Below, piece after piece: positions 2,927 through 51,030 of a DNA stretch of 64,000 nucleotides (its first letter is position 1; each line of letters starts with the position of its first letter). The notes beneath the pieces are model-generated. The model did no database searches. It saw only the letters and a program-made list of their open reading frames with translations, and had not been told where the DNA came from. Origin of the DNA: Bryum argenteum (lineage: Eukaryota; Streptophyta; Bryopsida; Bryales; Bryaceae); assembly GCA_037043015.1 (NCBI GenBank), contig CM073321.1, positions 32,156,101 through 32,220,100 of the forward strand, written 5' to 3'. Position numbers and translations under genes: made by a program.

Positions 2927-5777
2927 TCAAGCATTTGAAAATTCAACTATAGTATCGTGAATGACTTTAATTTGATCTACCGGGATTTTTAAAGTGCACT
3001 CGGTTGTATCCTTCTTCACCTTTGACTTCCATGAAGTCATCAATGAAGCTGTATTCTCCCACAATGGAGGTTGAGTATCGTCAACCTTCCAACGCAATCC
3101 TTTGTCCGAATTCCATCCATTGTAAGTCTCTTGCACATCTCCAACCCTGGATGTAGGCCGAAAGAATTGAATAAAGATGCAATTTGGCTGCTCGGGGTTT
3201 ATGTTTGGATCCGACAACGCTCGCGAAATCCAAACCGGCCGCGAGACACCATCAGCAATCCGAATAGCAACAAAGCATCCTTTATAAACATCACGAGCTA
3301 CACAAAAAGATGGTTGAGGGCGATCTCGGATCTCTCTAATATAGGCCTCATCCTCTCCAAACTCCTCACGAAGTTCGCCATCTTTACCAAATTGGTCCTC
3401 CAAAGTCGCATATAGTCTTGATTATGGCCAAAATCCGTCCCGAAGAACATTCGATGGTTCAATGGGAACCTCTAATGCTGCCTTCACAGCGCGCCAATAG
3501 AACACAAGATGTTCATAGCGTCTTCTATACTCTCCAATTCTATCTTCATCAGACATTGCCTCCCAGTACTTGATAAATCCAGATATGCCCTTCACAATGT
3601 CCTCCACACCCCTCATTGCACGATGGGTCGTAGGAGTTGGATCACCACGTGGCCACAAACAACAAGCTTCCGAGTCCTCTCTCCACAATTTAATTCGGGT
3701 TGTATCATTTGGCAACCAATCTTCTGCTGTGCACAAAACCTTGCACTTCATCAGGGGACAACCTGTAGAATCCAAAAAAAACTTGAATTGTTGTGCCTTT
3801 GTATGACCAACAAGTGCTTCCCCTCCATCCCTGATAAACCCATCGATAAATCCTTTAAAATCCGGCACCTCTTCAACAAGGTGGACGATGGATGGAATAG
3901 ATTCGACGTCCATGAAAGACTTCATGAGTAACGAAATAGTGGAGAAATTGTCTTTCCTCAACAGCATGCTCCACCTCCCAAACATTGCATCGATGTTATC
4001 ATGGGTATGCCCAACTAACATGAAATTGACGTATACCTCCCAAAAGATCTTCTTTGCAACAAGGAGAGACTAAAAACAGAATACATATCTATTCTTGTTG
4101 TCACCTGCTGCATTGTCCATCTGAACATTGAGAATTGGCGGAAGAGGAATCCCTCGAAGTGGAAGAGCTGGTGCTGGACAGAGTGACGATACGCAAGTCT
4201 CCGCACCTTGGAGAACAGCATCAAAGATAGGTGCCGACCTCGACCGAACAAAAAGCTCCCTCGAAGAATACTTTGGTGGCAACTCTAAATATCGGAGCAG
4301 CTTAGCAAAAGAGCCCACCGTGTAATTTGAATCGTGTGCGAAAATATTTAGACCGTAATGTGCGTAGCGTACATCTCCGTGGCCATGAGCGATCATTCCT
4401 TTGACGGATACTGGTAGCTTCATCAGACCATCGAGCTCCTTACTCTTGTGAGAAAAGAGAGGGGAAGCGGTCTACGCATGATCCATTTTGTCATGCATAA
4501 TCGTCAAACACTCATGTAGGTAGGTTTTTAACCTATACCTGTTTGCATAATATAACTCCCGATAAGCACGAGCTGCAGCCAAGTGTACCTCGAGCTTCTT
4601 TGCCCAAAGTAGTGCTTGTTGCGACCCAGCAATAGAGCCACGACGGAGTGTGTGCAACCGATCACATTTGGAGCACCGAGCGAAGTTATCCCCGGGTTTC
4701 TTCGCATCAAATTCAGGAAAGTGTAACTTCCGAATTCTACTCAGAGAAGATGGTGAGACCATCTTCAAACCGAAGCCTTCGTTTGCGGCGTTGATTTCCG
4801 GGATGGCACTCTTCCATTTCCATGTAGCGGGAAGAATCATGGATACAACCTTCTTTCCAGATTTTAATGTCCTCGTTCGGTGGGGCATGTGATCCGTAGA
4901 GTTCTCTAGGATGCAACGCAGGGTTGCAGTTGCCTGAGACGTGTGCTTACGCGGCTTAAGCAAAGACGAATTTCCATGGGGATGCGCCATGACGCCATCG
5001 GCGACGTACGGTTGAAACCGATGGAAGGTTGCCTTGGACACTCTAGCAATATGTCTCCACGTAGGCAAGCAAACATCGATTCCCTCAACCGTGACCACCC
5101 TCTTCCCGTCAGCATTCCGATGAGCCTGCCTGTGAACGTCAAGCTTCATGTGAAACCTGAATTGGTAGGTCATTCCACTATACATCCGCTCTCGGAAACA
5201 TCGGATCTTCTCCCTCGGGAAGGGCTAAATGCAGTTCCTGGTGCAGCAAACTTTTGCCTGAGACAGAATTGACAAACTCCTGAGTTAATAATCCTTTGGA
5301 TTTGACGGATGTTTCACGAGGCGGGTTCCGAGCTGAATTGTTGTAACGTCCGCTACGAGATGACTGAGGTCTCGCAAGAAGTGCAACACGAGAGTCATTA
5401 TCGTGTCTTATCTCATGGTCTCTGGGACTAGCCCCATTATAGAAGACTTTATCAAACGGCCAGGCCCTGACTGAGTATCTCTACTCATCTGGCACCACTG
5501 TGGCATCAAGGGTCTTCGAGATCTGAACTACGACTCGGGAGTGCCCAAGTGGACCATTGCTACCGAAAACGAGATCGTAACTGATGCTCTGACATAGGCC
5601 CTCCGCTTTAGGCCGATCGTCGTCACCGTGAAGGGTAACGAACTTAGTAGCCCAAAGACGCCTGGAAATACCTTCACAGTTTGGAATGTTCTCTAGCTCC
5701 TCTATTTGCACCACAACATCCTCATCAGAGGAGTAATCACGAAGCATTTGAACATCTTGAGCAGCCATGGTTGACAC
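2927..5777 (-). pseudogene. E1 DUF7869-like transposase-like gene, broken by stops
   Basis: The reading is essentially one frame from 5185 to 2927. It is interrupted by stops at about 4472 (TAG), 4070 (TAG where E2 has a tryptophan) and 3422 (TAA); an N-terminal part (5777-5481) is in another frame. Motifs in order are a central Cys pair (CSKCD), IMHDKMDH, then LNVQMDNAAGDNKNRY and FMLVGHTHDNIDAMFGRWS. The D-N-K-N and GHTHxxID motifs are hallmarks of the DUF7869 family, widespread in eukaryotic mobile elements and plausibly RNase-H-fold transposases. The gene is intronless, convergent with nothing, and transcribed away from a palindrome cluster at 5.8-6.9 kb. The E2 homologue is at 47457-50306. 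Family naming is from memory; a transposase role is inferred. Confidence 0.7.
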
Positions 5778-5825
5778 TGAAAAATCATTACAAACGCTAG
5801 CTTAGAAACAAAAGAATCGGTTGCG

Positions 5826-6883
5826 GTTCAACTCGAGTCGAGTTGAATAATGTAATGACTCAACCTCCCCAGTTTTATATATCCGCTAATTCGATCCAAG
5901 GATCAGAAATAGAAGGAAATCATTATGAAAAAGAAAAGATGTATGAATAGATTCAACGCGAGTCAAGTTGAAATCCTTGGAAAAGCAATCCTACGATATT
6001 CAAAACAGTCATTATCGTAGAATCTGGTACTCAAGATACTTAAGGCGTTTTAAGTGGCACGAGCTTCTCTATGAGTTAAGATGAACCCATAAATTGACAC
6101 CAAGAACATATATATGCGGTATATCGTATAAGAGTTTATTTACACTTAACAGTGTTCTTAAGTTGCTTCTAGGTCGAAATATATTTTTGAATTTAACTCG
6201 AGTCGAGTTGAATATCGACAAATATTTAAGGCGACTTCATTGCACGGTTGAGTATATCTTTACTTATGTGAGATTTCTAATTTAACTTGAATTGAGTTAA
6301 ACATTACTGGGGTTATCAAAATATCACGTGGCGCAGCCGGAAATGTGCTCCGTGAATTTCAACTCGACTCGAGTTGAATACTGGATTTTGGAGAGAGATT
6401 ATCTTCTCACGGATAAACCAAAGGACTCGATGATGTCCAATTCAACTCGACTCGAGTTGAATATTATTACCAAGGGATAGAGCATTCTTGATTTTGTGAA
6501 TAATATTGATACTTAACGAATATATCTCCAATTATGTGATAATTCATATTTAACTCGATTCGAGTTAAGAATTATTGGGCTAATGACAATATCAAGTGTT
6601 CCTAACGAATATCTACACAGTGAATTTTAACTCGAGTCGAGTTGAAATTCCACACCAATACAGGGAGCATCCCCTTCTTAATAATCCAACCGAAACTAGA
6701 GGATTTTATATTTCAACTCGACTCGAGTTGAATATCAACACCCATGGATATATCATTCTCAATTTTGACACCATATCTGATACTTGACGAGATACAATTT
6801 AACTCGAATCGAGTTGAGATCGTACAGTTGAAAGTTTACATCTATACTACGGACATATAATTTCAACTTGACTTGAGTTGAAT
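5826..6883. repeat. E1 palindrome cluster upstream of DUF7869-like gene
   Basis: Eleven recognisable copies of the E1 palindrome have centres at 5837, 5962, 6202, 6291, 6368, 6451, 6559, 6636, 6722, 6808 and 6872. From 6202 onward the spacing is 64-108 bp. The block also repeats at a higher order: three palindromes plus intervening DNA recur every 250-270 bp (6202/6451/6722 and 6291/6559/6808 series share flanking text). The central base varies. The cluster begins 50 bp upstream of the DUF7869-like start at 5777, so it sits in its promoter. Confidence 0.85.
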
Positions 6884-6899
6884 TCGTTTACTAAGGACC

Positions 6900-7560
6900 A
6901 GTATGCTTAAACATTCTCCCGAAAATATCGTTGGTATTTACAGACCTCAAAACCAGCTAACACTCGATATTCTACAGTGACGTATAAGGTGCGGCGTGGA
7001 CCTCATCTAATGAATGAGCACATATTCCAGGACATATTCCGAGGTGCAATTACAAGGATGGCAAAACCTTCTTCAACCCTGGACTCGTGTTAATCACGAC
7101 ATGCTGCGGCTTTTAATGCAGAAGGAGTCCTTAGTGGTCTCCATCAAGGCACATATCTCATTGATTGTAAGTCAACTACAAATCAGGAGTTTTATAGCAA
7201 GTATATCTTTTGTATTGTTCAAAAGCAATCTTACTCATTGCTTTAGCTGACCTCCTTTATAGTAGGAATCAGTTTTTACTTAAAGGCTGATATTTGAGAG
7301 ATATTTAGGTCAGTCACAGAACTTAGCTTAAATTGATTTGCTTAATTAGCTTATGGAGTTAATGTAGCTTTCAGGTTTAGCTACTACGTAGCGCCAATCT
7401 TAACGTCTTAGAGACATTAGTCACAGTTAGTGGCTGCTGGTGAGCTTAGAGCTTACCATAGCCGCGAGGCTTTGTAAAATTGCGATTTTTCGCCTTGTTT
7501 TAATATCCCCGGATTAGGGGTCTTCAGCACATATTCCAGGACATAATCCCCACAGACACA
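6900..7560. other. Unassigned spacer bounded by a 20-bp direct repeat
   Basis: No supported gene. AGCACATATTCCAGGACATA occurs near 7017 and again near 7528, bounding about 510 bp that includes a GTAAGT-like splice donor. The duplicated text could mark an insertion or a leader exon, but neither is proven. Confidence 0.3.
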
Positions 7561-7565
7561 GAAAA

Positions 7566-7588
7566 GTTATCCGCGACCCGCGGATAAC
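7566..7588. repeat. Perfect 10-bp-stem hairpin
   Basis: GTTATCCGCG, a three-base loop ACC, then CGCGGATAAC form a perfect inverted repeat in otherwise AT-rich DNA. No neighbouring gene gives it an obvious role. Confidence 0.6.
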
Positions 7589-7759
7589 GTGCATGCTATT
7601 AATAGTAAGTGTTGAAACACTGAGGAATTGTGCCTTGCACTCAATTTGCGAACGATGCTCACCTGCAATTTGCAGATTTCGAAAGGAAAAGTAGAGCTCG
7701 CAACTGAAGAAACCACGGACAAGAATTAGTAGCTAATACAGAAGTCGAAAAATACATGA

Positions 7760-8340
7760 CGGGTATATATATAGATACGAGTATAGATGTTAAATACATC
7801 ATATCTTAACTCAATTATAATTGTTTATAACATAAATTTAGATACAAATTAAACATTTATTGTGCTATCTTAATATAGAATGAAAAAAGCGCAATTACAT
7901 GCCCATGAGAGTACAATTAAATAGAGGAATAAATGAACAAATAAATAAATATATACGTAAATATAGATATATATATACGAGTACAAATGTAAATGAATAA
8001 ATTAATAAGTACGTATATATACATAGATACTAGTATAGAAGTTAACTTCATAAAATCTTACTTCAATTATATTCCGTAATAATATAAATTTGATTATATA
8101 TTGAGCATTTATTGTGCTATCTCAATATAGAATAAGGAAAGCGCAACTATATGCCCATACGAGTTCAAATATGTATATATGAATAGATAAATAAATAAAC
8201 ATACATATATATAGATATATATATACAAGTACAAATGTATACGAATAAATAAATAAGTACGTATATATGTACATAGATACTTATGTAGAAGATAAATTCA
8301 TAAAATCTTAATTCAACTATATTAATTTTAAGATAAAGTT
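7760..8340. repeat. AT-rich tandem repeat, about 250-bp period
   Basis: The segments beginning near 7760, 8013 and 8260 share GATACNAGTATAGA-like text, TTATTGTGCTATCT and AAAGCGCAA-x-TATGCCCAT landmarks in the same order. This gives two full units and part of a third. It is non-coding. Confidence 0.6.
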
Positions 8341-9410
8341 GAATACAAATTAAGAAACGAGGGTAATTCTCTTTAAATTTACTCCAGTTTGTTTTGTCAT
8401 GTGTTTTTTGTTTTTAGTGAAACACTACAGTATAAAAATATATTAGCTATATTATTAGTATTTTAGTGTTATATTTCTAGTATAGAAGTTATAACAATTG
8501 TGCATGATCAACATTTACATATCATTTGAGTGTTGATAATTAAGTTATATTTCATCGTTATATAGGTTCAATATAACTGAATTGACTCTCATTCTATTTG
8601 AAGTGACTTCTCGAAGACTATCAGAAAAATATTGTGTTAGTGTTTGTAAGGCGGTTTGTAGCCAATAATCTACTTCTATAACATAATATTGTTGGACGAT
8701 CTTTTGATATGTATGATGTATGGCTATGGTATGAATGATACATGGCGATGATATGTGTGATGTATGGCCATGATATGTGTGATGCATGGCCATAGTATAC
8801 ATGATGTTTCTCAAATATATCTTCTATCTATATACTCTCATTGTCTTATTTATATTGTCCAATACGTTCTCTCAAACCATCCTATCCACTTATGTATCTA
8901 TCCAATAATATTATTAATATGTAGCCAATAATATTATCAATAAAATTTTATGTTGTAATAATATTAATATAATACTCATAATTAATGATGATTTAATGTT
9001 ATAGGAATAATATAGTAGTTACAGTAATAGTACAATACAGGCCAAATAAAATTTGCAAAAAAGTTATTTTAACTATAGTACCTAGGTCCAAGGGTTTAGA
9101 ACAAAAATTGGTATCAATAGAACAAAAAAGTGATATTATAGACAGTGGTGGACGTGATATTAGAGTGATTTTCCATCTTCAGGTAATCGATCGATGTAAT
9201 TGATGTTCTCCATAGTGGGAGGCCATGTCTACACGTATCCGTTTTAGCAATGGTGACTTTACTAGTATATATATTGGCACGGACATACATTAGAAACTTC
9301 TAGAAGATGGAGAAGCGTCTCGGAGCGTCTCGGAAGGCGCTTGAGAAGTCTCGGAAGCCACTTGAGAAGTCTCAGAAGAAGCTTCCTACCTGGTAGTATA
9401 TATAGGAGGC
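8340..9410. other. AT-rich spacer with minor tandem repeats
   Basis: No gene is supported. Around 8700-8810 a roughly 27-bp unit (TATGTGTGATG-ATGGCCATGA) repeats about four times. Around 9300-9400 a GTCTCGGAAG/CTTGAGAAG unit repeats several times. Confidence 0.4.
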
Positions 9411-9417
9411 AACATAA

Positions 9418-10480
9418 ATAAATAAAAAGCAACAAGAAAATAAACATGCACACATAAAAATAATAAGCTTCATAATCTTTAAAAAGTTGGTAGATAGGAG
9501 ATACTTTTTTAGCTTCAGCGTCAAGAGGACAACGAGGACCTTACTAGTTTAGGGTTAGTTAAGAAGTAAGTACTAAGATATGAGCATTATCAATGTTGAA
9601 TTAATACTTGAGTGTTGACAATGAAATAATGTTTGTTTATTATTGTTTGTATCTAACTTATATAAATACCTACAGACAATTTCTTTGTAATTATCCATTA
9701 ACCCATAAAGATCTAAGACGACCAAATTAGGCTTTTGCTATTTTGGGTAACGTAGATGAATAGGTTGAAAGTAATAGTTTAGTTTAAATTTTTTGATGGA
9801 TCCTCCCTCTACTCCAAAATTTATATGGTTAATTTTGCGAAGCCAATTTCCAATTCGTGAGTCACCTCTTGTTTTTGAACTACATATACTCGAGTAAAAA
9901 ACAGATACATACATAATTATAATAAACATAGTATTGTTTGAAAGAATTGTAGACACATGATACTTTTTTAGCTTCTACGTCCTGTTGATAGGGACATTTC
10001 TTGTATAAGAGAGTTGGATTATCGGTGATAGATCTGGCGATCCTTCCTATCAACCTACGTACCTTTCTCCTACAAACATTCCTACCTATCTAGCTACCTA
10101 TCTACCAACATACAAACGTACTTACCTACTCACCTACTATTTATGCTTTTTGGATTACATAAAAAAAAATGTCAACGAAGCAAAAGTAACAAAAAAAAAA
10201 AAAAAAAAAAAAAAACCCAACAAGAAAATAAACACGCACGGATAAAAATAATGAGCATGACAATATCTTAGAAATTGGTAGAGAGGGGATATTTTTTTAG
10301 CTTCCTTCTCCAGCAACGATGACCTTATTGGTTTAGAGAACGTTAAGTAATGGGTAGTGGGATATGAGCATTATCAAAGTTGAATTAGTGCTTCGGTGTT
10401 AACAGATAAATAATGTTTTTTTTTTTTCTTGTTTGTATCTTATTACAATATATAACTACACACAACTTTTTAGTAATTAA
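9418..10480. repeat. Pair of divergent direct repeats about 790 bp apart
   Basis: Positions 9418-9690 and 10210-10480 share CAACAAGAAAATAAAC, GATAC/ATTTTTTTAGCTTC, GATATGAGCATTATCAA and GTTTGTATCT in the same order. They could be worn LTRs of a small retroelement or a segmental duplication. The interior has no coding sequence that I recognise, and a 24-base A run lies just before the second copy. Confidence 0.4.
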
Positions 10481-10679
10481 AACATGGTATTTCCGTTAAC
10501 ACGTTTTATCTAATACTACACGTACTATTGTAAAGTGTTGTGGAGCCTAAATTTTTACGATACAATACATATAGTGTTAGAATAGGCATTTACTGAACTA
10601 ATCTTCTTTTCAAAAAAATAAACTAGAAAAAATAGTTAGAAATTAGTGAAAATAGTATGGAATTTAGTGTAGTGTAGAG

Positions 10680-11270
10680 ATTGGCAGACATGAAAAGGGC
10701 AAGAAATTGCTGCTCGGGGCAATATTTGGCAGGGGTAGCGTGTAAGGCGGCCCGGGCAGGCAGGGGCACTGCAAAAGGCGGCCCGGGAAAGATTAGGGGC
10801 AACCCGCTCGAATTCTGGCCGGGAACGGAGAGTAGGGGGGCTAGGGTTTGGCCCCCATTGTATCCCTTGTCTTCCTCGCTTCTGCGCTCCGCATGCTTGT
10901 TTTCGGCTGTCGGCGAATTACGTTGTGTTTTCTTGAATTCTCGCTATTGCTACCTTCTGGCCTCGAAAGTTGCTAGCTCCTAGCCTTGAAAGTAGCTATC
11001 TCCTGGCCTCAAAGGTCGTGTTCGTTCATGTTTATATAGTCATTGTTATCTACTTGCTTGTCTTTGTACATTCTCCTAGACGCTTCTTGCTCTGCTCCCC
11101 GACGCTTCTTGCTTCTCTTAGCTTTGCGCCTCGACTCTGTTAGCTTAGTGTCTGCTTTTCGAGATTTTCGCGGCATCAAGTGGGTGGCTTGTTTCGACGG
11201 CGCTTCTGCAGCTTTGGCAGTGCTCACCGAAGTTCTTGGACTTCACAACCTTCTCTGTAAGTTAATTGCC
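10680..11270 (+). promoter_or_regulatory. Possible promoter and leader of the E1 ParB/methyltransferase-like gene
   Basis: A GC-richer, CT-rich tract lies in an AT-rich setting, with a TTTATATAG box near 11030 and a good splice donor (CTCTGTAAGTTAA) near 11260. It lies on the side expected for the long plus-strand gene at 13.1 kb, and E2 has a comparable GC-rich tract in the matching place (41.7-42.2 kb). No transcript evidence is available from sequence, so this is a positional inference. Confidence 0.25.
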
Positions 11271-11279
11271 ACTGTTTGT

Positions 11280-12060
11280 AACTTTTGGTTTGCAATTTCA
11301 TTCTGTGATGTTTGCTTATTTTGTTCATTTCTGTCAGTTTTCCAAACTTCGAGAGTATAATTTGACTGGCTTTCCTTGAAATTTGAGTGACTACTTTGGA
11401 AAAGATGAGGAGGAACTTTGAGTGTAGATGTCTGATTTAGGAGAAAAAGAGGAAACTGGCTTGTTGGAGCTAGTTCATAAAATTTCCGAACCCTAATTTT
11501 TAAGAGGAGCTCTGGAATTTGAATGTTCAAACAAAATGGCTAGATTTTTTGGAGTTGTTTAGGGTTGATTTGAAGTAGTTCACAAATCCGTTCAATTGCC
11601 AATTGGTGAGAGCTGTCAATGAGGTTGTACTCAGTGATTCTAAATAATTAAAATGCGTATGTTCACTTCCAGATCATCGATTTGTGAATCGATTGCAATT
11701 GAATTGGTCTACTATGTGATTCTTGCATACTTGAATATGCATTACTGTTAAGAATTTCGTTATGAATCAGTCATTGTAAATTTTCTTTTCTAATCATTCA
11801 TTGTTTACAATCATTCATTGTTTGCTTTAGGATTAGGATAAAGCCGAGGCTTGTCCAATTAATTTTGGTATCCACAGTCTAGAAGGGAAGCAGACAAAAT
11901 AACGGGTGAGTAATCACTACTTTTATCTCGCTCAATCTGACTAAATTGTAGCAGAATAGTTTGGCATTGGATTTCTGTGTTCGCGTATTATTCAAAATAC
12001 AAGTTTTGTACATACTTAGCGTAGCCGAGTTGTGTTGATGTTCAAAAGATTCAATAAAGA
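11280..12060. other. Spacer, no gene supported
   Basis: AT-rich sequence between the possible leader and the palindrome cluster. It would be intron or untranslated sequence if the leader at about 11.0-11.26 kb is real. I see no domain or repeat in it. Confidence 0.3.
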
Positions 12061-12065
12061 TCAGC

Positions 12066-13066
12066 AGTTCAACACGACCAGAGTTGAATTGGAAACACAT
12101 TTTATTACCTGTGCATACCAACGCCAGTATAGAATACAATCAGATTCAACTCGAGTCGAGTTGAATTCTCCATTCAATTCTTTTCTGAGAGTTAAAACGC
12201 AAGTTCACAGACCAAAGAGAATTCAACTCGACCCGAGTTGAATCTTTGACCCAGAATCCTCTTAACGGTCAATGTTAAATTAGGCTTGAACAATTCAACT
12301 CGATTCGAGTTGAATTAAGAAAACACGAGATATGAGGGTGCTGCAATGATTCCGCTATGCCATTGAGGTAGTAGATCCAATCACTCTCCTCAACCCGAAC
12401 AATTTATCTCGACTCAAGTTGAATCGATAAATTACTAGCTACAGTCGCAGTGAACATATTCAATTCGATACGAGTTGAATCAGAGATGCGCATGTGAGCA
12501 ACTAGAAAATTATTCAACTCGACTCGAGTTGAATCGATAAATTACTAGCAATGGTATCGTGGTACATATTCAACTCGATTCGAGTTGAATAACGGTAGCG
12601 CATGTGAGCAACTAGAAAAATAATCCAACTCGACTGGAGTTGAAGTAGAAAGATTATGTACGTTTCTTCAAGCAGTTAAAAAAACAATATAATATTCAAC
12701 TCGACTCGAGTTGAATTATTTAAGCATAGGAATCACTAAATGCAGACATGGTATCCATATAGTTGAAACATGACATGAAAAATTCAACTGAAGTATAGCA
12801 CAAATCCTCTGACTAATAAGACAAGAACATGAGTCTATACAATCAACTCGATTTGAGTTAAAATGAAGAAGATTTATCTTCAAGTTTAATTCAACTCGAC
12901 TTGAGTTGAAAGTATTCAAGCACTGTATGTGGAGATCACAATACTCCTCAAAGGATACATTCAACTCGAATCGAGTTGAATTAAACTTCTGTGGACAGTT
13001 GCTAACGATATTCGTAATGTAGTAGAGACGGATAGAATGCTATTTTAACTCGACTCGAGTTGAATA
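12066..13066. repeat. E1 palindrome cluster upstream of ParB/methyltransferase-like gene
   Basis: About fourteen palindromes are present, with centres at 12078, 12155, 12232, 12304, 12413, 12469, 12523, 12579, 12634, 12705, 12852, 12900, 12970 and 13054. Spacing is 48-149 bp. A 110-bp unit carrying two palindromes (with CGATAAATTACTAGC and CATGTGAGCAACTAGAAAA) is tandemly duplicated at 12424-12533 and 12534-12643. The cluster ends about 40 bp before homology to the E2 protein starts. Confidence 0.85.
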
Positions 13067-14550
13067 CTAATCCTTGCAATATGTTTAGATAAATACTCAT
13101 CTGGCCCTTGTGTCTCATCAGGAGAAAACAATCCGAAGGAGAGGCTCTCAACATTCTTCAAGCGCTATGTTCCTGATGGCGACAGCAAAGTCGCAGACCC
13201 AGAAATATTTGGCGACATGTGGGTGCACACAGAGCCTTCGGATGTCGAATGGTGGAGTATGGTCCTTACACAGCACACGGACAAGCTGGCTGTCGTCACC
13301 AAGTACAGGGGAGCAGAGTGCAACCTTATGGTCAGTTTGGAGGAGAACATCATCGATGTTGTCGTCCACAATACGCACTGGATCTGCGTGACGTGCATCG
13401 TGGACGACCCCACTCAAGACACGACTCTGGACCAAGACTACCGGTTCACTTACATGATCGACACTATAAAGATCAATTTCGACATTTGGGCTCATGTCGA
13501 GAGTATAAAAAATTCTCAGTACGATCCCTTGGCAAAAAATGTCGAGCAACACAATTGCGAGTTTCGATTCACAACCGAACTCGGTGACCAGCAGCCACCA
13601 AGTATTCTCGCCCCTCGTCTCCGATCACTAGTCAATGACATGGTGAACTTCATGGCAAAGCTGCAACGCAAGAAGATGCAAATGACACCCCTTTGTCTGA
13701 CGCAGGAAGTAAGCATGCACAGCGGCAGCCACGAGTCGATCCTATATCAGACTCCTGAGGCGACGGGATCAAAGAGGCACAAGGCGAATCCATTCCAACA
13801 CAGCGGGGGCCGACACCAAAGAAGATCAAATCAGTCATGATAAAGAAGTCGACCTCGGCCGATTCCACGGAGATTGATTAGGCAAGCTTAGTGTCGGCCT
13901 TGACAGACGTCCCAATCGACAGTGTAGAGAAAGTTGTCGATTACAAAGAGTCCATGAATGTCTTCAAGAACTACTCGGCTCTTCGCCAGGACTCTTACAT
14001 CTTTGGCTGAGATGTCACTTTCGAGATTCTGATCGAGCGTCTCTTTACCCTCCCTGTGGACCTGAACATCTGGAACCTCGAGCAGGAAAAAGTCAAGCAC
14101 ACAATGCATTTCCTGATTGAGATGTGCCATAAGGAGAAGAAAAACACCCTATGTGTCTTCCTGAAGAATAAGCTCGTAAAACCCCAATCTTGGGAGGAGA
14201 TACAGGACAGAAAGTTCTACATGGTCAGTAATCAACACTGTGTCAAGGCCTCCAAGCAATTGCGAAACAGGCTAAATGTAGATGTGAAGATCAGGGACGC
14301 TTTTAAGGCCTGGGACTGCTTCGTAGTATGGAATGAAGATAAGTCCACCATTCGGAGAATCTCCGCGTTCTACAACAGGGTCAACCACTTCATGAATACA
14401 AATCCAATGTGGGCAACAAATATCATTGGGGCGCAGGAGCTGTGGGAAAGCCTCGGTAGACCGGAGAATCCAAAGGAGGCTACTGAGGTTGGCAGGACCG
14501 TCACACAGAAGGCCTCGAAGGGCAAGAAACCAGCTAAGGACGCTTTCAAT

Positions 14551-14700
14551 GTATGTGCAACTCCATTCAACTCGATTCGAGTTGAATTTTGTCCTATAAT
14601 ACTAACAATGATATTTCAATTCCATTCCAGTTGTAACCTATTTAAACTCGACTCGAGTTAAATTTCTAACTCAATATCGTACTCGGTTGATACATGATTT
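14551..14700. repeat. E1 intron 1 palindromes
   Basis: Two E1-type palindromes, centres 14576 and 14652, lie inside the intron between the ParB-like and methyltransferase-like exons. E2 has one E2-type palindrome in the equivalent intron. Confidence 0.8.
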
Positions 14701-16066
14701 CATGGAAGCTGTCAAGCTTAGATTTGCTCTCATTGACGTTAAGGGTGCCCAGAAAGCAGTGACAGCAAGCAAGGCGGCCAAAGAAAAGCTCAACATCTAG
14801 AATGAGCTTAAAATCATTTGTGCTCCTAATGATGTCAACGAGGTCTAGCTAGAGCTTATTTCAGCCGCATCCCAAGAGGAGCTCATTGACTCCGACACAG
14901 GAAGGAAGATGAAGGAGTTGGAGAAGTGGAAGCCTGAGCATGGAAACATCTCCAGAGAGTTCTTCAAATGGATCGGCAACACAAGCTACCCCCACCTCAA
15001 GCGATTAGCCGAGCATATGCTGAACAAACTGAACCCGAAATCGTCATACACATACCCCAAGGTCACGTTGAAGCAAATGAAGGGTGTGTTTGTGGATTGC
15101 TACAGCTCTTACGATTGGCTGGAGCGCTGCAAGAGGAAGACCATCGTGAAGCACGTGATTCACAACATGCGCCCTGACTTAATGTTGTTCAACACCAGTG
15201 GGGACTTTAGGAAGGAGAGCTGGAAGAAATTCGAGACCGATTTCAAAATAACGCCAGGTACGCTAAACGTTCTGATCACAAATCCCGGGGAGTCCTTCTT
15301 CTCGCTGTCAAAAACCCCCAGCAACAAGAACAAGTCCGTAGAGCAACTCTTGTCGTATGCAACAGAGTTGTTCAGAGTCTTTCTTGCCAACAAGGGGAAG
15401 TTTCAGGTTCCAAAGGGCGAGGCAAACTTCAAGGCCTACAACTTGGAGGACGATGTGCTGGGGGAATGACACGGTGACTCTTGGAACAAATTATCTTCCA
15501 AGAGAATCAAGGTTGGAATAATGGACTTCCGTGAACTCCCTGGAGCACAAGAGGTCTTAGCTTTATCGAGCTTGTCATCAAGCTCGTACTTCTACAACGT
15601 CCTCCAAGTTCTAAAGTCTATCACGGACCCGGTGGTTACTGAAATCCCTGTTTGGATTTGGATGTGCGGAAGTAGGGATGCTGAGGCGAAGATTAAGAAT
15701 TACCTCGATAGTTGCGAGTTCGGAAAGAATTACAAGATTGAGTATGCGGAATATATTCCAGCTCCATATGAGCGACTCAAGGATCAAACCCTGTCAACCA
15801 TGAAGGCCAAGGATCATGTCCAGATCCTCTTCTTGTTTCGTAAATCGCAGAAATTGAAGTTTCCAAACCTCCCGAAGTTCTTCCCGGCCCCCGACACTCC
15901 ATAGTTCAACATCTGCGGGAGATACAACGAACTTGAGTACCGTATTTATGATACAGAATTGAGGTTGAAGCTGCTTGATCTTTTCTGCAAAGAAGGGGAT
16001 GCGATCTTCAGTGTTTTTGGAGGCGGGAAGCTCTATCGTGCGGCCTGCGTAAGGACATCCTTTATA

Positions 16067-16414
16067 TTTCAACTCGATTCGAGTTGAATATTTTGACATG
16101 GCTCTGTTGTTTTTTAAGTTCGTTGTATTTAACTGGAGTCGAGTTCAGTGCGCACTTCAATGTCCAGAAATCATTTCACACTAACTTGGATTCTATTCAA
16201 AGCGACTCAAGTTGAACGGATTATTTAGTCTGCTACGAAACCATGTTTTTTCATGCGTTCTTAAATTTAACTCGACTCGAGTTGAATGTATTGATTGCTG
16301 GCGCTTAGTATTTCATATTTGGTATTCAGCTCGAGTCGAGTTGAATGCGAATATCAAATTAGTATAGTACTGCTCTCACACGCCAGCTCCGTTTCAACTC
16401 GAATCGAGTTAAAC
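16067..16414. repeat. E1 intron 2 palindromes
   Basis: Six E1-type palindromes fill intron 2, with centres at 16078, 16138, 16206, 16276, 16335 and 16403. Spacing is 59-70 bp. None enters exon sequence. The matching intron of E0 carries the same number at nearly the same spacing. Confidence 0.85.
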
Positions 16415-17275
16415 GTACAAGTAATTGACGTGTTCATCTCTTGTTGTGTCTACTTGCAGATGTGTTCGCTGATGAATTACATGATCAGCTGCTGCGACGA
16501 GCACGACGAAGTCGTCAAACGTGCGATGGAGGTCTTTAACTTGGATCGTTGAAATTATGAAAGTGGGTACCCGATCGGTGAGGCTTCCGGATCCAAGGAG
16601 AGACTTGGACCACCGCCACCCTCCATGAAGGCCAAGAAGGGGAAGGCAAAGAGGAAGGGTAGGGGAGTAGAGTTACCACTTGACGTGAATGACCCAAGAC
16701 CGATAGTAATTAGGTCAAGTGACGACGATGACGATCCTGACCAAGATGTTGAGGCCTACGGATCCCAACTTCTCATAACGCCCCAAACTAGACGAGGCTC
16801 ATCTTCTCATCTTCCTCATCCCCAGGAACATGGCTTCTCAGAAAGCTCTCTTCCGGCTTCCACCCCTTCGCCTTAGAAGAAGAAAAGGGAGTGACTATCC
16901 GTTGACGCTCTAATGGAAAGGCTCGTTAGAATGCAAGAAGAGGCGCAGGCGCGACAAAGGATCAAAGTTGAAGCAATGCTTGCTCAAGAGCGCGACGAAC
17001 GCAGAATTCAATGACTAGAGGATGAGCAACGATGGAGCGTAATGATGTCTCAGGCCTTCGAGAGCTTAGTAACGCCGTAGAGGCTTCTAGGAAGCTAGTG
17101 CTTGATTAGGCTAGTTAACCATGATTGGTCTCACCATACATAATTCAAATTTGCCATGTATATTCTGTAGATTATAATAAATGTTTCCTCTCGAACTGAT
17201 TTCATTTCAGAGCGGGCTTGTGTCTGACCTTTTATTTTATCCTAGTATTTGATGGTGCTAGTTCTCTCAGCATTG

Positions 17276-17298: not shown

Positions 17299-17360
17299 TG
17301 GCTATATCATATTACATATCATCCTTATTGATGATTCCTCTAAAATGAATTTGAATCCAG

Positions 17361-36754: not shown

Positions 36755-36781
36755 TGTTTTCCCGTATCTTCGAATTCTGAT

Positions 36782-37111
36782 CTAATTTCTGGCCCAGTCA
36801 TGAATTGCATTCATGTCTCTTAACCAAGGTCGGCCCAAAATCATAGGGAAATTGTTCTTTGTCGGCATGTCGATCGCGACGAAGGTTGCCGGTGTAGAGA
36901 TACCGTGAGTTGTGATGGCCACGGTAGAAAGTATTCCCAATGGGGTCACCGGGGCATCTTTCGCCATTCTCAAAACGAACTGTGCTGTTGTAGGTTGTGG
37001 TAGTCCCAACTGTTGTCTTAGGTGATCGCTGATAACGTTGACTCCGGAGCCTCCGTCAACTAATACATTGGCGATTGGTGTTGTCCTGTCGGACATGTAT
37101 GACGGCGGCAT
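36782..37111 (-). pseudogene. Gypsy aspartic protease
   Basis: A retropepsin-like fold with NVLVDGGSGVNVIS at the active-site turn and FPMILGRPWLRD at the flap/closing motif. The active site reads DGGSG rather than the common D-T/S-G-A. A TAG at 36782 separates it from reverse transcriptase in the same frame. Confidence 0.8.
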
Positions 37112-37269
37112 CGGTGTCTATGGTTGTCGCATTAATCTCCACGGTTGTCGTGCCTTTTGTTGGGATAGTGTGCATATTTTGCAGGTATGTCTGCAATTCT
37201 GGGCTAATCTTCAACAGATCGGCTAATGTAATGCGCACATCGGTTTTTTCTAATACTTGTTGCAGTTAT

Positions 37270-38640
37270 GGGACCACCGTTGTTTCCAGGTCGTTTTGAA
37301 TTTGAGTTCGCGATTTGTTCAATCTTTCCCAATCTTTGTTCCGCAAAAAAGGCTTGCGATGTTCTATGACATGTTTATCGGTTTTATCTAAGGTAGCCTT
37401 AGATCTTGTGGTTACAGCGGTACATCTTATATGGTAGCCACGTTGGTGCCGTGGACTTGGTAAGTGTAACTCCCCCTTTTTGCGGCGGTAACCGGTCTTT
37501 GCCGGGATGTCTTGCTTGGTGTCCGTGGTAAGCGGGTGTTGGCCGTGTTTTGTCTTAACACGCGGGGCATTGGCCTCGTCGGTGGTGCGGGGATCCGCAT
37601 TCCCGACCATCGTTTGTTTGGTTGAAACGCGTCTCACCGACTTCCTCCGGGTACATGGATCTTTGCGCTTTGTTCGCGTGGGCGGTATCTTCCGTTCTTT
37701 GCGAGTGTATTGGAAAACCCGACAACGTCACTGCATGTAGTTTGCCGCAAGTAGTGCGTGGTGCCGCTGTCCCCACGATAGGCGCTCTTGGTAGCGGAAG
37801 CAACGGTGTGTGTGTTTTGTCTATGATGCGATTCCTCGCTAATGTCATTGGCGGCCGTGAGTATCTCTCGCAACGTTTTTATACCGCGGATGATAATGCC
37901 TGTTGTATCCACGTTAGCAAGCCCTTTTTGAACCATTCACATAGGTAGTCTTCTTCAGCCGTTGGCCGAAGTTTGTCGGCCGATTGTTTGAATCTTTCGT
38001 AAAACTTGTCGACGAGTTCGTTTCTTTTTCTTGTCAGTATATTGGCTAAAGCTCGGAGTATTTCCGAGCTTGTTTTTAACTTTCGAACTTCGCAAAAAGC
38101 TACGCTCCATTTCTTCCCATGTCGGGCAACAAATGTTCGAAACTTCAAATCAATGTACCAGATTGATGTGGTTGCGAAGGAAGGGTGGTTCGAAGATGTT
38201 CAGTAGGTCTTGGTCTTTGTAACACCGTTGGTTCGAGCTATTACTTTAAACTGCGTATGTGCCAATCGGGATCTCCGGAGTCATCAAAGATTGGGTAAGG
38301 TATCTTTGGTAGCTTGATGAGCCGATCCCTTTCCCGATGCCATAGAAGCGGCTATGTTTGGATCAATCGGTGGTAGCCGTGATGGTCCGGCCGTAGTAGC
38401 GATGGGCGGAACGATCGTTGATGTTCCTACCCTTGGAGATAGTGTGAGTTTAATATTTCGATCTTGGCATTGGTGGCGTCGTTTTTGCCACCAAATCATC
38501 ATCATTTGTTGTTTCATCCATTGGAGAAGTTATCTCGTGGTATCTTGGTCTTCTTGGGGTATAACCTCCTCGGGTTCCGCGGTTCTTTCTTTGCTTTTCG
38601 TGGAGCATTGTGTCGTGTTTGACGTTTTTGTTTCCTCGTT
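37270..38640 (-). pseudogene. Gypsy gag, heavily frameshifted
   Basis: Pieces in different frames show the gag core: GDPDWHIRSLKVIARTNGV, WEEMERSF and LVDKFYERFKQSADKLRP. A basic, Pro-rich C-terminal region follows. No intact zinc knuckle was found, though scattered Cys residues lie near 37.6 kb. Confidence 0.55.
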
Positions 38641-38687
38641 TTCTTTGGATGACTCAACACTCCATCCCCAAAGCGTAGTCGCCAAAA

Positions 38688-39485
38688 TGTTAGCGCAGGT
38701 AACGAGGATGGAGTCTTTCTGAGCTAATCCATTTGGAGTAGCGAGTTTGGGATGGCGATGGATAACGAGGAGGCGAGCTATCTTTCGGTTTAACGAGGAC
38801 GGCGAGGAGTAGCCAAAAAGGCGGCGTTGACTTGACAACATTGGTTGTCTTTGCGGAAGGAGGGGCATTTGATCGTCTTCTTCTTTCTTATTTTTACTTT
38901 ACCCACGAATAGAATCGGTGGGTAGTCGCGATCTTGAAGGGAAAAGAGAGGGGGTACAGGCGTTTAACCGTGGCAATAAATGAGGTCACCGGCCCCGTGA
39001 ACTGTCCGTCCGTTGTCTCTGGGACCTTCATTGTAACCTCCGGTGATCTTTGTATGCGATGAAGGTACCGTGGGTGTAGAACGTCTAAGACAAAGATTAG
39101 GGTTCTTGCCGCGAAGTCTACCAAGAAGCCTCGGTGTTCGGAGATGCGGTGAGAGATGAGGAGACACAGGATGGGAGAGAAGATCGTGGGCTCATGGCTT
39201 TGTATTCAATTGATAACAACGGAAAGATATTCAAGCGTTACGCAAGATAAATCGAACATATCCTCGCTACGGTGACTACAACGAGTGTCTCTCTCCTATT
39301 TTCTACAACCTTTATACTACGGTCGCCACGGATATCCCTAAACCGAACGGTGCCTTTATCGATTGCCGAGGCATCTGCGATTAATCTTTGGTGCTTCCCA
39401 CCGAAAAAGTCTTTGCTATCTCCGTTTCTGCGCGCCTTTCTCGCTTTGGCCGCCGAGGTTACCCGATGACGTCAGTCGGGTAACA
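38688..39485 (-). repeat. Gypsy 5' LTR
   Basis: 798 bp, same termini as the 3' LTR. On the minus strand it is followed by TTT and TGGCGACTACGC, a plausible tRNA primer site. Confidence 0.9.
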
Positions 39486-40387
39486 CTCCACGGTATTAAC
39501 GTTCTTTGGGATGCATTGAATAGCATCGTTGAAAGCCGTTAAAGCATCTTCTTCCGGGATGAGCATGCTCTTCTTCTTTGTCGCCTCGGCCGACTTCTTT
39601 ACGGGAGCTTCTCTCCTCATTACCGGCGAGTCAGCCGTCGTGCTGGTTGGAGGGGCAAGCCTTGTAGCACGTTGCGGGCCTGTTTGGGTCGTGCTCTGTA
39701 CGCCGCTCCCCGTTGCTGTCAGCCCAAATCCCTCGAGTGGAGCTTTCCCTTTGAGGTGTATAGTCTTCGCCATTATATCAGCGTGCGTCAGAGCAGAGAC
39801 TACAGATCGCACTTTGATCGCGAGCTGCTTGGCCTTGAGAGCTCCCCCCTGTTTGGTTTGCCATGCTTTAGTAAGCATATCCTGTTTCAGTGTTGATTTG
39901 ATATCATCGAAACTGGACGCCTCTAAGCTCTCCAACAACTGCCCCAAGTCGAAACGAGTCTGCTTGATATCGATCAGTATGGCGTAGTTGTAGGCACACT
40001 CCTTGTCATTCTCCTTGAAGGTTGTGCACGTCGCTATGACTTCCTTCTCTGTTTCGTGGTCGAAGTCAGTGAGTTCGGAGTCGATGTCAACGCACATGGG
40101 GTCTTCTACATCTCCTTCGTATGTGACGACAAGGGTGAGGAATGCTGTGTATGGGATCCATCTCGCAGACCACGAAACCACTTTCGATGGGTCTTTGAAT
40201 TCCCAGCAGTCCAATTGCTTTGTGTCATCTCCATCGTCTTCTTCAGCGTCCAGCGGCCTGAGTTTGAAGAAGTGTTGGAGCGCCTCTTGAACTCGTGCCT
40301 TCTCTTGATTGTTCATGTAAAGGTTGTGTTAGTTGATAGTATCGGTTTTGATACACATGAAGCGTAGTTCATACATCCTAGAACTTG

Positions 40388-40785
40388 CAGTTTAGCTCGA
40401 CTCGAGCTAAACTGTAGAGGCCTGCTTCATCAACAATTTAGCTCGAGTCGAGCTAAACTGTAGGGACATCTGTCACCTACAGTTTAGCTCGACTCGAGCT
40501 AAATCAAGAATGAAACAGCCTCTGATTTTAGCTTCAGTCGAGCTAAACACTGTTGTTGGCACAAGCCCCTACAGTTTAGCTCGACTTGAGCTAAACTGTA
40601 GAGGCCTATTTTATCAATAGTTTTGCTCGAGTCGAGCTAAACTGCAGGGACATCTGTCACCTACAGTTTAGCTCGACTCGAGCTTAACTGTTATTGAAAC
40701 AGGCCTCTACAGTTTAGCTCGAGTCGAGCTAAACTGTAGTGGACACAAGCCACTACAGAGTTTAGCTCGACTCGAGCTAAACTGT
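40388..40785. repeat. E2 palindrome array upstream of ParB/methyltransferase-like gene, 46-bp phase
   Basis: Nine palindromes have centres at 40401, 40447, 40493, 40537, 40585, 40631, 40677, 40723 and 40771, giving spacing of 46, 46, 44, 48, 46, 46, 46 and 48. The best copies have 13-bp arms (half-site CAGTTTAGCTCGA). Spacers repeat as a set of four (for example GGGACATCTGTCACCTA after the second and sixth palindromes), so the array is a tandem duplication of a four-palindrome unit of about 185 bp. It starts about 70 bp upstream of the start codon at 40316. Confidence 0.95.
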
Positions 40786-47034: not shown

Positions 47035-47370
47035 GGCTCGAGCTAAAGTGTCTTGCATGCATGTTCCTGCAGTTTAGCTCGACTCGAGCTAAACTGCTGT
47101 ATGCATCTTTTCGGACAGTTTAGCTTGAGTCGAGCTAAAGTGTAGCATATATCTGGTGAATTTGTCTTGTTGGTGTTGAGCTAATATATAGCGCGGGACA
47201 GTATTCCCAATTCTGCTCGGGTCAGGCTTTACTGCAAGAGCTGTAGGTAAGACAGTTTAACTCGCGTCGAGCTAAAGTGATTGATCGAATACATAATGCA
47301 GTTTACTTCGACTCGAGCTAAATTGTAGTATGTATTCTCTTTATAAGTTTAGCTCGACTCGAGCTAAACT
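47035..47370. repeat. E2 palindrome array upstream of DUF7869-like gene, 46-bp phase
   Basis: Centres are at 47083, 47129, about 47175 (half-site only), 47221 (worn), 47266, 47312 and 47358, again 46 bp apart, with a collapsed copy at 47035-47049. The array ends about 90 bp before the start codon at 47457. Together with 40388-40785 it places the same phased sites beside both divergent genes. Confidence 0.9.
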
Positions 47371-47456: not shown

Positions 47457-50306
47457 ATGGATTTCTCTTCAGAAGATGACACTTTTGGCGATGCACCTAT
47501 GAATCCTGGTTTACTTGCTGCTCAAGTTGTTCCTCCACGGCTCTGGACAGGGAGGACTGTGTCAATGCTTGATTCCGATGGACTGAGAATCGCTGAGGGT
47601 TTACTTCGAAACCTACGATCTGGCGCTGTACCTGATTGTAATGGCCTACTCGGTGATTCCCGAGTTGTGGTGCAAGTTTCAACTCTGTTTGTTGAGGTCG
47701 AGGATCCAGACGACTGCATATACTCCTTCAAGTCGTGGCCCATCCAACAAGTCCTCCTAGACGGTGTTACTCTTTTTGACCATAGCCAGCAAGATGTTTA
47801 CAAAAGATGGGTCCGGGAACGTAGTCGACGGTAGGGGTCATCTCGAACTCGATCGTATGATAATTCTTCAAGGAATGAGTCTACTCCAGTTTCGCGCAAA
47901 GCACAGTTCCTGATGACAGCGGAGTCAATCAATGCGTTTGCATGTAATACCTGCTGTAAGCTCAACTGTGTTCAACTATACCCAAGGGAGAAGATCAAGG
48001 TTCTCAGGTGTCGCATGTACGACAAGACAACTGTGCAGTTTAAGAACCACTTCAAACTTGATGTCCATAGGCAGTTCCACAGAAATGCTGAAAGACGAAA
48101 TGTAGTCACTCTAGAGGGTATAGATGTTTGCAAACTTGCGTGGATGAACATCATGGGCGTGAGCAATGGTACGTTTTATCGCAACGCCCAGAGTGCAGCT
48201 GATGGCCGAGGCCCAGTTGCACGGGAACACGGGCCTGCGAAAGCCTAGGAGACATACGATTGTCGCTTCTGCCGTCTTAGGGGCAATACTTGATAGACAT
48301 GTCGATCACATGCCTCACAAGTCCCGAAGCCTTCCATCGGGGGAGAAGGTCGTTGCCAAGGTACTTCCTTTAAGTTTTAAACGGAAGGACGAGATTCCTC
48401 TTCTTGATCATCATCTTGAAGAGTGTGGGCTTCCGCCGGTGTCAACATCAAACTTTAGTAAGATTCGCCGCCTCAGCTATCCAGAATACTATGCCAAAAG
48501 ATCGGGGGACAATTTCGCGCGTTGTTCCAAGTGTGATGAGTTACAATCACTGATGAAGCTCACTCTTCCCGGGACACAATCATCGCTTATATGGTCGAGG
48601 AAGTTGAATGTGCACTTAGATTCCGCATATGCGCACAGAGACTTGTACTACCTCAACCGCTTTAGGTCTAAGGAGTCGCCTCAAGATGTTTTGACCATTA
48701 TGCATGACAAGATGGACCACTCAAAAACAGCATCACCTGCCTTGTCTCATAAGGTGAAGAACTTAGACGGACTCATGAAGTTACCTCTTGCAGTTACGGG
48801 AATTCTTGCTCATGGTCATGTAGACCAACGATACGCTCATTACGGACTAGATGTTTACTCACAAAACTTCTGGGGGATCTCGAAGCTACACCTAAATCCT
48901 CATCTAGACAGCTCTTTACAGAGCCCCCATCGCATCCTCTGTATACTGCTCCTTTACGAGGTTCAGAGGTGTGTATGGATCCATTAGGCCCGATTCCTGA
49001 CATCCTAGTTCCAGCAAAGTCTCTGCCTCCACTTTTGAATGTCCAAATGGATAATGCTGTGAGTGATAACAAGAATAGATTTGTCTTCAGTTTCTGGTCT
49101 CTTTTGGTAGCGAAGCGAGTATTCCGAGAGATATATGTAAATTTTATGCTTGTTGGTCATACTCATGATGACATAGATGCGTTATTTGGGCGTTGGAGCA
49201 TGGCGTTGCGAAAGGAGGATTATCCTACCATCCCTCTTCTCATGAAATCTTTTATAAGGATAGAGAAACTTCCTGTTATTCCACACCTTGTTCAAGAGGT
49301 TCCGGACTTCAAGAAATTCATTGAAGAGTGGATGTTAGTTGGCTATGAAGCATTGGTAGGGCATACGAAAGCGCATCAATTCAAGTTTTACATGGATCCA
49401 AGTGGATGCCCCGTAATGAAGTACAAGATTTTCTGTCACGACGAGGAATGGCTTCCTAGAGGTGATCATGCTGGTATTAAATTGTGGAAGGAGGATTCTG
49501 AAGGCAGATCATTATGGCCACGTGGTGAACCGGATGCAATGTGTCCAAACGAGATGCGCCATTTGCTTGAGGTGGTGAAAGGGATTTCAGGCTTTGTTGA
49601 TCATTGGGAACGATTATCACGTGCGTCAATTGAATCGCAGAGATTGTACGAGCCTCTCTCATATTACTGGAGCGGTGTTAAAGATGCTCTTTGTATACCC
49701 ATGGATGTACTTGCATCGTCGCAAAATGGGATTCCGTCAAGTTTTGAGGAACCATTACTGTTACAACATGGATTTTGGCCATCAACTCGACTTGCACATG
49801 CTATGGAAGATGAGTTTACTTTAGAAGGGAATGTACGCGAAGAGTACGACGACGATGATCATTTTGTTGGCCAGAGACGTGATCGTCCTGCTTCGTCACT
49901 TCGAGTTGGACGTGACCTTTATAAGGGCTATTTTGTTGCACTACGTCCATGCGGCACCGATGGTCGACCTTTCTGGCTCGGGCGAGCAATGTCTGATCCA
50001 AATTCAAACCCAGACCTACCCAATACGGTTGACATCTAGTTCTTCCGTCCAATGTCACGCTCCAAAGAAATTCTGAAGCATTACACAGATTGGGATACAA
50101 ATAGAAAGCTTCGTTGGACTGTTGAGAAAGGTGTAGATGTATGTTCGCAACCTACAGATGCTATTTTCACTGCTTGGAAATCAAGAATTACGCATTTTGA
50201 CGAGGAAAGCAGTGAAGGTATAGACGCAATCGTTACAATACCCAAGAAGCAGGTCGAAATCATCAAGGCTTCTTTACGGGAGCTTGCTTCATCTTCTCAA
50301 GAGTAG
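47457..50306 (+). pseudogene. E2 DUF7869-like transposase-like gene, broken
   Basis: A reading of about 940 codons starts MDFSSEDDTFGD. An acidic N-terminus, a Cys-rich segment (CNTCCKLNC), CSKCDELQS and IMHDKMDH lead to the core LNVQMDNAVSDNKNRF and FMLVGHTHDDIDALFGRWS. The tail has RDRPASSLRVGRDLYKGYFV. Lesions are a stop at 47833, a frameshift near 48210, a deletion of about 40 bases with frame change near 48868, and a TAG at 50037 where E1 reads QFFRP. It is intronless. The family is DUF7869; the D, NKN and HTHxxID residues suggest a nuclease-type transposase, which is inference. Confidence 0.75.
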
Positions 50307-50720
50307 TCTTCTAGTATATAGTATATATTATAGAAGTAGGTGTGATAGTACTTAAAATTGGTATTGACATATATATTACATTGATATTTAGTATATAGAG
50401 TATTATATATTTGTACTATTTACTATCCATATTCAATATATTTATTTTGTATAAGAAGATTGTTTAAGTTGACTCTATTATTATTATTAATTGAAAGAAA
50501 ATTATTTTTTGTTGGTATGTTAATCTTGACATGTACCGTATCAAATATATGTATGGTTGGAAATGTTTTTTAAGATAAACATATTTTCTAAGATGCAAGA
50601 GGTCTCATATCATCTCCAAATATAATGGAAATTAGTAAATTCCGAGTACATATGCATACGGTGAAACCCCTCTAAATGTTGGTTTTTGCTTCATCCGTTG
50701 TCTTGTTTTAATTTGGGAGA
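50307..50720. other. AT-rich 3' flank of E2 DUF7869-like gene
   Basis: No gene or clear repeat; leads into the terminal region. Confidence 0.35.
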
Positions 50721-51030
50721 TAAAAATGTTCCAAATATAACAAATATGGGGTTTAACGCGTTAAGATTTGTAACACATGTGTTAAACAACGTCAAAATTA
50801 ATAAAACATTGTGTCATTTTTGACACAAAATCGAGAATTACTACGTTCACTACAGACGTGTCCAACGTCATCCGACGTCTAAGGACGTTTCAAAAATCGC
50901 GGTAAAACCTAGGACACAAGTGTTAATCAACATCAATGTCGACACTATCTTCTGTTTCTTTTGACACAAACTCCACAATCAAAGGCACGTTCCAGGATGT
51001 GGCCACGTGTCACGATCTTAGCCATCAAAA
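50720..51030. repeat. E2 right terminal/subterminal repeat region
   Basis: TGTGTCA/TGACACA-rich sequence with AACACATGTGTTAAAC, AAAACATTGTGTCA and GTTTCTTTTGACACAAA is shared in the same order with 24001-24215. The inner edge (50725-50752) is inverted relative to 24283-24320. It marks the likely right end of E2. Confidence 0.6.

Follow-up and report, generated by a model that had tools for sequence, protein, structure and literature searches.

Sola-like transposons of a moss with a putative VANC-like self-recognition protein and palindrome arrays of their own

Transposons of the Sola superfamily are described as having a DDD transposase and 4 bp target-site duplications (TSDs), with some members longer than 15 kb, and they occur in moss (PMC10741241; PMC9033089); the mean length given for Sola1 in a bivalve library is 5.4 kb (PMC10294476). 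The targets of VANC in Arabidopsis VANDAL elements are described as arrays of motifs that are specific to each family, lie in promoters, introns and intergenic DNA and have evolved through tandem repetition (PMC5735166), and fungal TET/JBP DNA transposons as carrying an epigenetic protein beside the transposase (PMC12730594). Here, we analyse a stretch of 64 000 nucleotides from the moss Bryum argenteum (assembly GCA_037043015.1, contig CM073321.1, positions 32 156 101 to 32 220 100; hereafter the window, with its first letter as position 1), which holds two large elements, E1 and E2. Each has a gene for a DUF7869 protein, a divergent long gene for a protein with parts resembling ParB, methyltransferases (MTases) and FCP1, a small Ser/Pro-rich gene and arrays of long palindromes. 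The literature that we searched yielded no paper mentioning DUF7869 and no description of a transposon of this composition; this is a terminal inverted repeat (TIR) transposon with an accessory system that those searches did not show described. We consider it reasonably likely, from sequence and by analogy, that it is a Sola-like transposon whose VANC-like self-recognition protein would bind the element's own palindromes and keep the element transcribed.

E1 and E2 are diverged members of one family of class II DNA transposons with TIRs. A preliminary description of the window had treated positions 2927 to 51030 as a single block; two elements are indeed present, but they are separate and have the following ends.

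1731-18656, no strand: element E1, whole; transposase end at 1731, ParB-gene end at 18656, with shared breakpoints and a TIR at both ends
1731-1755, + strand: E1 TIR, transposase side, AACACAATATTCATTAATTTGAGAG
18632-18656, - strand: E1 TIR, ParB-gene side, AACACCAAGTTCATTATTTTGAGAG
24282-50753, no strand: element E2, whole; ParB-gene end at 24282, transposase end at 50753, with a nested Gypsy element inside
24282-24306, + strand: E2 TIR, ParB-gene side, AACCCCATATTCGTTATATTGGGAA
50729-50753, - strand: E2 TIR, transposase side, AACCCCATATTTGTTATATTTGGAA
24278-24281, + strand: E2 TSD, TAAC, with its second copy at 50754-50757

At the ParB-gene end of E1, 36 of the 43 other listed rows stop at query positions 1956-1964 (1957 is window position 18656) and the other seven stop earlier; at its transposase end the rows of the inner part begin around query position 532, which is window position 1731. 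When the right side of E2 was searched against the genome, all 39 other listed copies stopped at query positions 754-758 (window 50753-50757), and on the left side 39 of the 40 other listed rows begin at 1278-1283 (1283 is window position 24282), the remaining one at 1365. The breakpoints carry TIRs (AACACCATATTCATTATTTTGAGAG in E1 and AACCCCATATTCGTTATATTKGGAA in E2), which in the family are about 25 bp long and begin AACMCCATATTC. The preliminary description had proposed a search for ends with target duplications, and such ends were found: an exact 4 bp TSD is present in nine of the 11 elements for which both flanks were read. For the E2 type this concerns seven of eight elements (TATT, CTAT, TTAA, GATT, CAAT, ATAG and TAAC, read at the ParB-gene end; the eighth pair, AGTG/ATTG, is unequal), and for the E1 type two of three (CCAA and TTTT), the third being the E1 copy in the window, whose compared flanks are unequal and show no matching TSD. 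With their TIRs and TSDs, these are class II TIR elements: a family of cut-and-paste DNA transposons that are large, about 17 kb when nested insertions are not counted, and have TIRs of about 25 bp and 4 bp target duplications. Genome searches with each gene gave at least 150 matching places.

The DUF7869 gene lies at one end of each element.

2927-5741, - strand: E1 DUF7869 transposase gene; stops break the reading frame in this copy (PF25273, 2.3e-19 and 1.5e-14)
47457-50288, + strand: E2 DUF7869 transposase gene, broken here (PF25273, 8e-37)

Both genes pass the Pfam cut-off for DUF7869, as does the C3 copy (1.1e-41), in which the gene is one uninterrupted frame of some 960 codons. In tblastn comparisons the E2 gene is 90-94% identical to the C3 copy, while the E1 gene matches an intact E2-type protein at 51% over 5251-2930 and at 33% over 5738-5259. 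In a structure model the core of the protein resembles RNase H and has conserved Asp residues; since the gene also lies inside the TIRs, we strongly infer that the DUF7869 protein is the transposase of the family. The 4 bp TSD, the proposed DDD transposase, the large size and the occurrence in a moss all recall Sola, including Sola1 of Physcomitrella, as described; in contrast, the Sola descriptions that we found mention no ParB, MTase or FCP1 gene and no palindrome arrays. The TSD length, the putative DDD-type core and the moss host fit a family that we call Sola-like, not Sola, a likeness drawn from published descriptions.

The long multi-exon gene runs divergently from the transposase gene in each element and encodes, in order, an N-terminal domain, a distant ParB-like domain, a β-class amino-MTase fold, a disordered stretch and an FCP1/NIF-like HAD domain.

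13064-15904, + strand: open frames of exons 1-3 of the E1 ParB/MTase-like gene, with frameshifts or stops in this copy; N-terminal domain at 13064-13840, ParB-like part within 14011-14661 and MTase-like part at 14849-15904
16460-16873, + strand: E1 exon 4, end of the MTase-like part and a disordered Ser/Pro/Lys-rich stretch
39486-40316, - strand: E2 N-terminal exon
29464-30049, - strand: E2 ParB-like exon
27896-29278, - strand: E2 exon 3, linker and MTase-like fold; in this copy two frames are separated by a stop
26907-27740, - strand: E2 exon 4, end of the MTase-like part and the disordered stretch
25542-26297, - strand: E2 FCP1/NIF-like (HAD) exon (PF03031, E-value 6.8e-14), fused in Ceratodon homologues

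In E1 the homology of exon 3 apparently continues to about 16047, and the FCP1-like exon of the window copy is gone through a deletion at about 17061. On sequence and structure models the gene is read as one protein of five-part architecture, the activities of its domains all being predictions. The preliminary description had recognized the ParB-like and MTase-like parts, but it saw the gene only in part and missed the FCP1/NIF-like domain, for which further matches also pass the PF03031 cut-off (2.5e-15, 1.2e-8 and 4.4e-12) and which is annotated in ten of 16 Ceratodon homologues (precomputed annotation). Similarity to the ParB N-terminal domain was found by profile comparison (hhalign score 30.4, probability 27%, with controls at 18.2 or below), and the MTase-like part matches in structure the β-class DNA MTases with their permuted Rossmann fold. 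Purifying selection is seen on both the transposase and the ParB/MTase-like gene, with median pairwise ratios of nonsynonymous to synonymous substitution of 0.15-0.43 (8-10 copies per gene, including broken copies and those of the window).

A small Ser/Pro-rich gene follows the long gene in both elements; the preliminary description had listed its protein as a conserved component and the gene is real, but its conservation between E1 and E2 is weak.

17424-18272, + strand: E1 small Ser/Pro-rich gene (tblastn with the protein of the C2 copy, 71-85% identity in three pieces)
25019-25234, - strand: E2 small Ser/Pro-rich gene, matched part (tblastn with the E1 protein, 37% over 76 columns, E-value 7.6e-7)

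The palindromes are ATTCAACTCGANTCGAGTTGAAT for the E1 type and CAGTTTAGCTCGANTCGAGCTAAACTG for the E2 type. They are not due to chance, as the genome contains 1319 sites of the E1 pattern and 5878 of the E2 pattern, compared with none for the reversed patterns. Their places in the window are as follows.

5827-6882, no strand: E1 palindromes upstream of the transposase gene, 11 sites with at most four mismatches
12068-13064, no strand: E1 palindromes upstream of the ParB-like gene, 14 sites
14566-14662, no strand: E1 palindromes in intron 2, three sites
16068-16413, no strand: E1 palindromes in intron 3, six sites
17277-17297, no strand: E1 palindrome before the small gene, three mismatches
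40391-40781, no strand: E2 palindrome array upstream of the ParB-like gene, nine sites 44-48 bp apart
47073-47368, no strand: E2 palindrome array upstream of the transposase gene, five sites
29351-29371, no strand: E2 palindrome in intron 2
27801-27861, no strand: E2 palindromes in intron 3, two sites
26780-26800, no strand: E2 palindrome between exon 4 and the NIF exon

No mapped exon contains any of the 35 E1-type sites (at most four mismatches) or of the 18 clear E2-type sites (20 rows in all, with two weak ones at 45.2 kb); the sites lie upstream of the two genes and in introns. The palindromes are long with a free middle base, which suggests a dimer on two equal half-sites. They had been called phased, which applies to E2 (44-48 bp) and to a third subfamily, E3 (35 bp), but not to E1, where the spacing is irregular; moreover, the regularity comes at least partly from tandem duplication of larger units.

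The location of the sites bears on two other readings. In En/Spm elements, a second DNA-binding protein stands beside the transposase. The palindromes could by analogy be internal sites at which the transposase or a TnpA-like helper binds for synapsis and excision, with the ParB/MTase-like protein as the helper; this plan matches the presence of a second putative DNA-binding protein, and palindromes are found in 41 of the 46 E1 and E2 loci read. None of the sites is subterminal, however: the palindromes nearest to the two ends are about 2.5 and 3.4 kb away in E2 and 4.1 and 1.4 kb away in E1 (1.4-4.1 kb overall), and the sites sit at start codons and in introns, so that we hold this reading to be unlikely. 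Alternatively, the palindromes could be operators through which the ParB-like protein autoregulates both divergent genes, by repression or activation and with no role in silencing, much as KorB, a plasmid regulator, acts through operators. This would suit arrays that in E1 and E2 alike begin no more than about 0.1 kb from the transposase start, and others that directly precede the ParB-like gene; yet there are further arrays in introns 2-4, and simple operators would not need so many, and we judge this reading a little less likely still.

Do genes and palindromes travel together? We used the places among the matches listed (85 for the E1 ParB-like gene, 72 for the E1 DUF7869 gene, 96 and 91 for their E2 counterparts), leaving out lower-identity rows and one row at 70%. 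An E1-type DUF7869 match lies within 15 kb of 41 of the 85 E1 ParB matches, divergent in all 41 cases; random placement, on the subset of the contig carrying the window (C1), gave a mean of 3.0 pairs and a maximum of nine in 200 trials. For E2, 41 of the 96 ParB matches have an E2-type partner within 15 kb, 40 of them divergent, whereas cross-subfamily pairs number none of 85 and one of 96. With a 50 kb limit, partners are found for 54 of 85 and 57 of 96. Sites in the loci read (four of the fetched loci being the window's own) were assigned to the nearer consensus, the E1 and E2 consensuses differing at four of 20 places, with a limit of three mismatches. The 24 E1 loci hold 153 E1-type and no E2-type sites (21 loci with sites), and the 22 E2 loci hold 127 E2-type and no E1-type sites (20 loci with sites). 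Six E3 loci (L069-L074) hold 44 sites with the E2 core and other flanks. Among the loci read, no E1 or E2 locus thus departs from its own palindrome type, and elsewhere the type follows the ParB tree. The palindromes recur in public sequences outside this genome, where proteins of the ParB exon often extend into the next intron: 25 of 77 hold a palindrome-encoded peptide (0.03 in the shuffled control), compared with one of 77 DUF7869 proteins and one of 18 Ceratodon and Physcomitrium gene models, whose introns have been cut out. In a tree of 73 ParB domains, 28 of them labelled, the form of this peptide (E1 or E2) changes twice, compared with 7.8 times under shuffling (none of 500 as low), although near-copies cluster and the long E3 branch leaves one of the two changes unsure. 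The two elements, their divergent gene order, their palindromes and the linkage were all confirmed in the sequence, and linkage and segregation support the earlier proposal of one transposon family in which transposase, ParB/MTase-like gene, small gene and cognate palindromes are inherited together.

In the self-recognition reading that we favour, the ParB-MTase-FCP1-like protein would be a dimeric, sequence-specific binder of the element's palindrome arrays, for which the arrays in both promoters and in introns would be docking places. Once bound, it would hold off or undo silencing, in the way of VANC in VANDAL elements, so that the element stays transcribed, and its FCP1-like domain would act on the transcription machinery. 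Protein and palindrome would change together, so that each subfamily would tend its own copies. By this analogy the role of the protein is probably anti-silencing or transcription control. The likeness to VANDAL and VANC, as described, lies in motif arrays in promoters and introns, their multiplication in tandem and their change together with one element-encoded protein. By contrast, VANC has DUF1985 and DUF287 domains (neither gave a Pfam match in scans of the element proteins) and short non-palindromic motifs, the moss function is a prediction, and VANDALs are described as Mutator-like elements with a longer TSD (PMC10741241). TET/JBP transposons likewise have an epigenetic-type protein beside the transposase, but theirs is a dioxygenase, not a ParB-MTase, and its abstract mentions no cognate palindrome arrays (PMC12730594). 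Bacterial and phage ParB and KorB-type regulators share the distant ParB-like profile similarity and multiple long palindromic sites; they differ from the moss protein, which is below the Pfam threshold, lacks the GERRxR box, is fused to MTase-like and FCP1-like domains and belongs to a plant nuclear transposon. METTL14/MTA1-type and β-class N6-adenine MTases offer another parallel: they have the same permuted Rossmann fold, and a degenerate catalytic motif as in the moss protein is found in noncatalytic partners such as METTL14, whereas the moss version is fused to a ParB-like domain within a transposon.

Several observations weigh against this self-recognition reading. About half of the gene matches used have no partner within 15 kb among the matches listed; these are likely to come from nested insertions (as in the window), incomplete match lists and decay, and partial copies are common. 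The coupling is not one-to-one, as E3 has kept the E2-type palindrome core although its protein is very different (identity to E1 of about 36% in exon 3), and among the arm variants of the E1 and E2 palindromes changes are hardly paired, if at all. The binder of the palindromes could instead be the transposase. As for the domains, Pfam ParB_N is over its cut-off in no element copy in the genome (the lone sub-threshold match is an unrelated gene), family scans of 26 members gave no ParB or MTase family, and the ParB-like region is modelled with low confidence (predicted local distance difference test score below 50). The GERRxR nucleotide-binding box is missing, its Arg residues being absent and [ND]G[QR]H[SCH]V.A[SA] standing at that place. 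This also makes it very improbable that the protein forms a ParB-parS-like nucleoprotein complex pairing, tethering or segregating extrachromosomal circles of the element: the ParB-like profile and the many copies of long palindromic sites are as such a complex would have them, but the copies are chromosomal insertions with TSDs, and no ParA-like gene was noticed in the reading frames, in which no search aimed at ParA was made. The NIF match is absent in the Physcomitrium homologues P0017 and P0018, and the DxDGT catalytic motif of FCP1/NIF is not kept, being DLNGI in E1, E2 and Ceratodon. Nor is the [DNS]PP[YFW] (DPPY) motif kept in the MTase-like part, where E1, E2, E3, Ceratodon and Physcomitrium have D[FL]R.[LVI]P. 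With both motifs altered, the two `enzymes' may be inactive, and an active DNA amino-MTase marking the element at or near its palindromes, for which the fold match to β-class DNA MTases would speak, is the least probable of the readings considered.

The E2 gene is split in the window by a nested retrotransposon of about 9.4 kb, the long terminal repeats (LTRs) of which, at 30050-30845 and 38687-39485, are 88% alike.

30050-39485, - strand: nested Gypsy LTR retrotransposon with an LTR pair (RVT_1, 2.8e-29, within 35120-36781)

Around E1, positions 323-1730 are a piece of an older E1-type element, inverted relative to E1; this fragment on its left accounts for the long inverted repeats first seen there. 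A further E1-type end lies about 15-17 kb to the left of the window, and about 340 bp inside E1 (2143-2483) are skipped by the matches to other copies. Outside E2 on both sides there are 222 bp direct repeats (23998-24218 and 50759-50975), 72% alike, which are not E2 sequence, and a minisatellite with a unit of 18-19 bp lies at 52755-52919.

Named relatives of the element proteins come from Ceratodon purpureus and Physcomitrium patens; one further relative in the databases (P0115) carries the label `uncultured Leptolyngbya' and may be moss DNA that ended up in a metagenome bin. C1 is 44.1 Mb long, 17% of the 259 Mb genome, but it holds 68-86% of the places used among the best matches listed (71 of 85, 62 of 72, 71 of 96 and 27 of 40). 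Given this concentration and the U- or V-chromosome gene names of 12 of the 16 Ceratodon homologues, C1 may be a moss sex chromosome. A bolder form of the self-recognition reading, which we advance tentatively and regard as possible rather than probable, is that a eukaryotic transposon adopted a ParB-methyltransferase-type protein, with a methylase fold turned reader and an FCP1-like fusion, as a parS-like self-tag that would coat or mark cognate copies only and shield them from silencing; it would be a second, independent invention of the VANC type, thriving on moss sex chromosomes. If the self-recognition reading is true, an unrelated protein architecture would join the few sequence-specific systems of anti-silencing or self-recognition that transposons encode, and a protein with its long palindromic site would become available for sequence-specific chromatin work in plants. 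DUF7869 would gain a function-bearing context, and there would be a clue to the accumulation of one transposon family on possible UV sex chromosomes.

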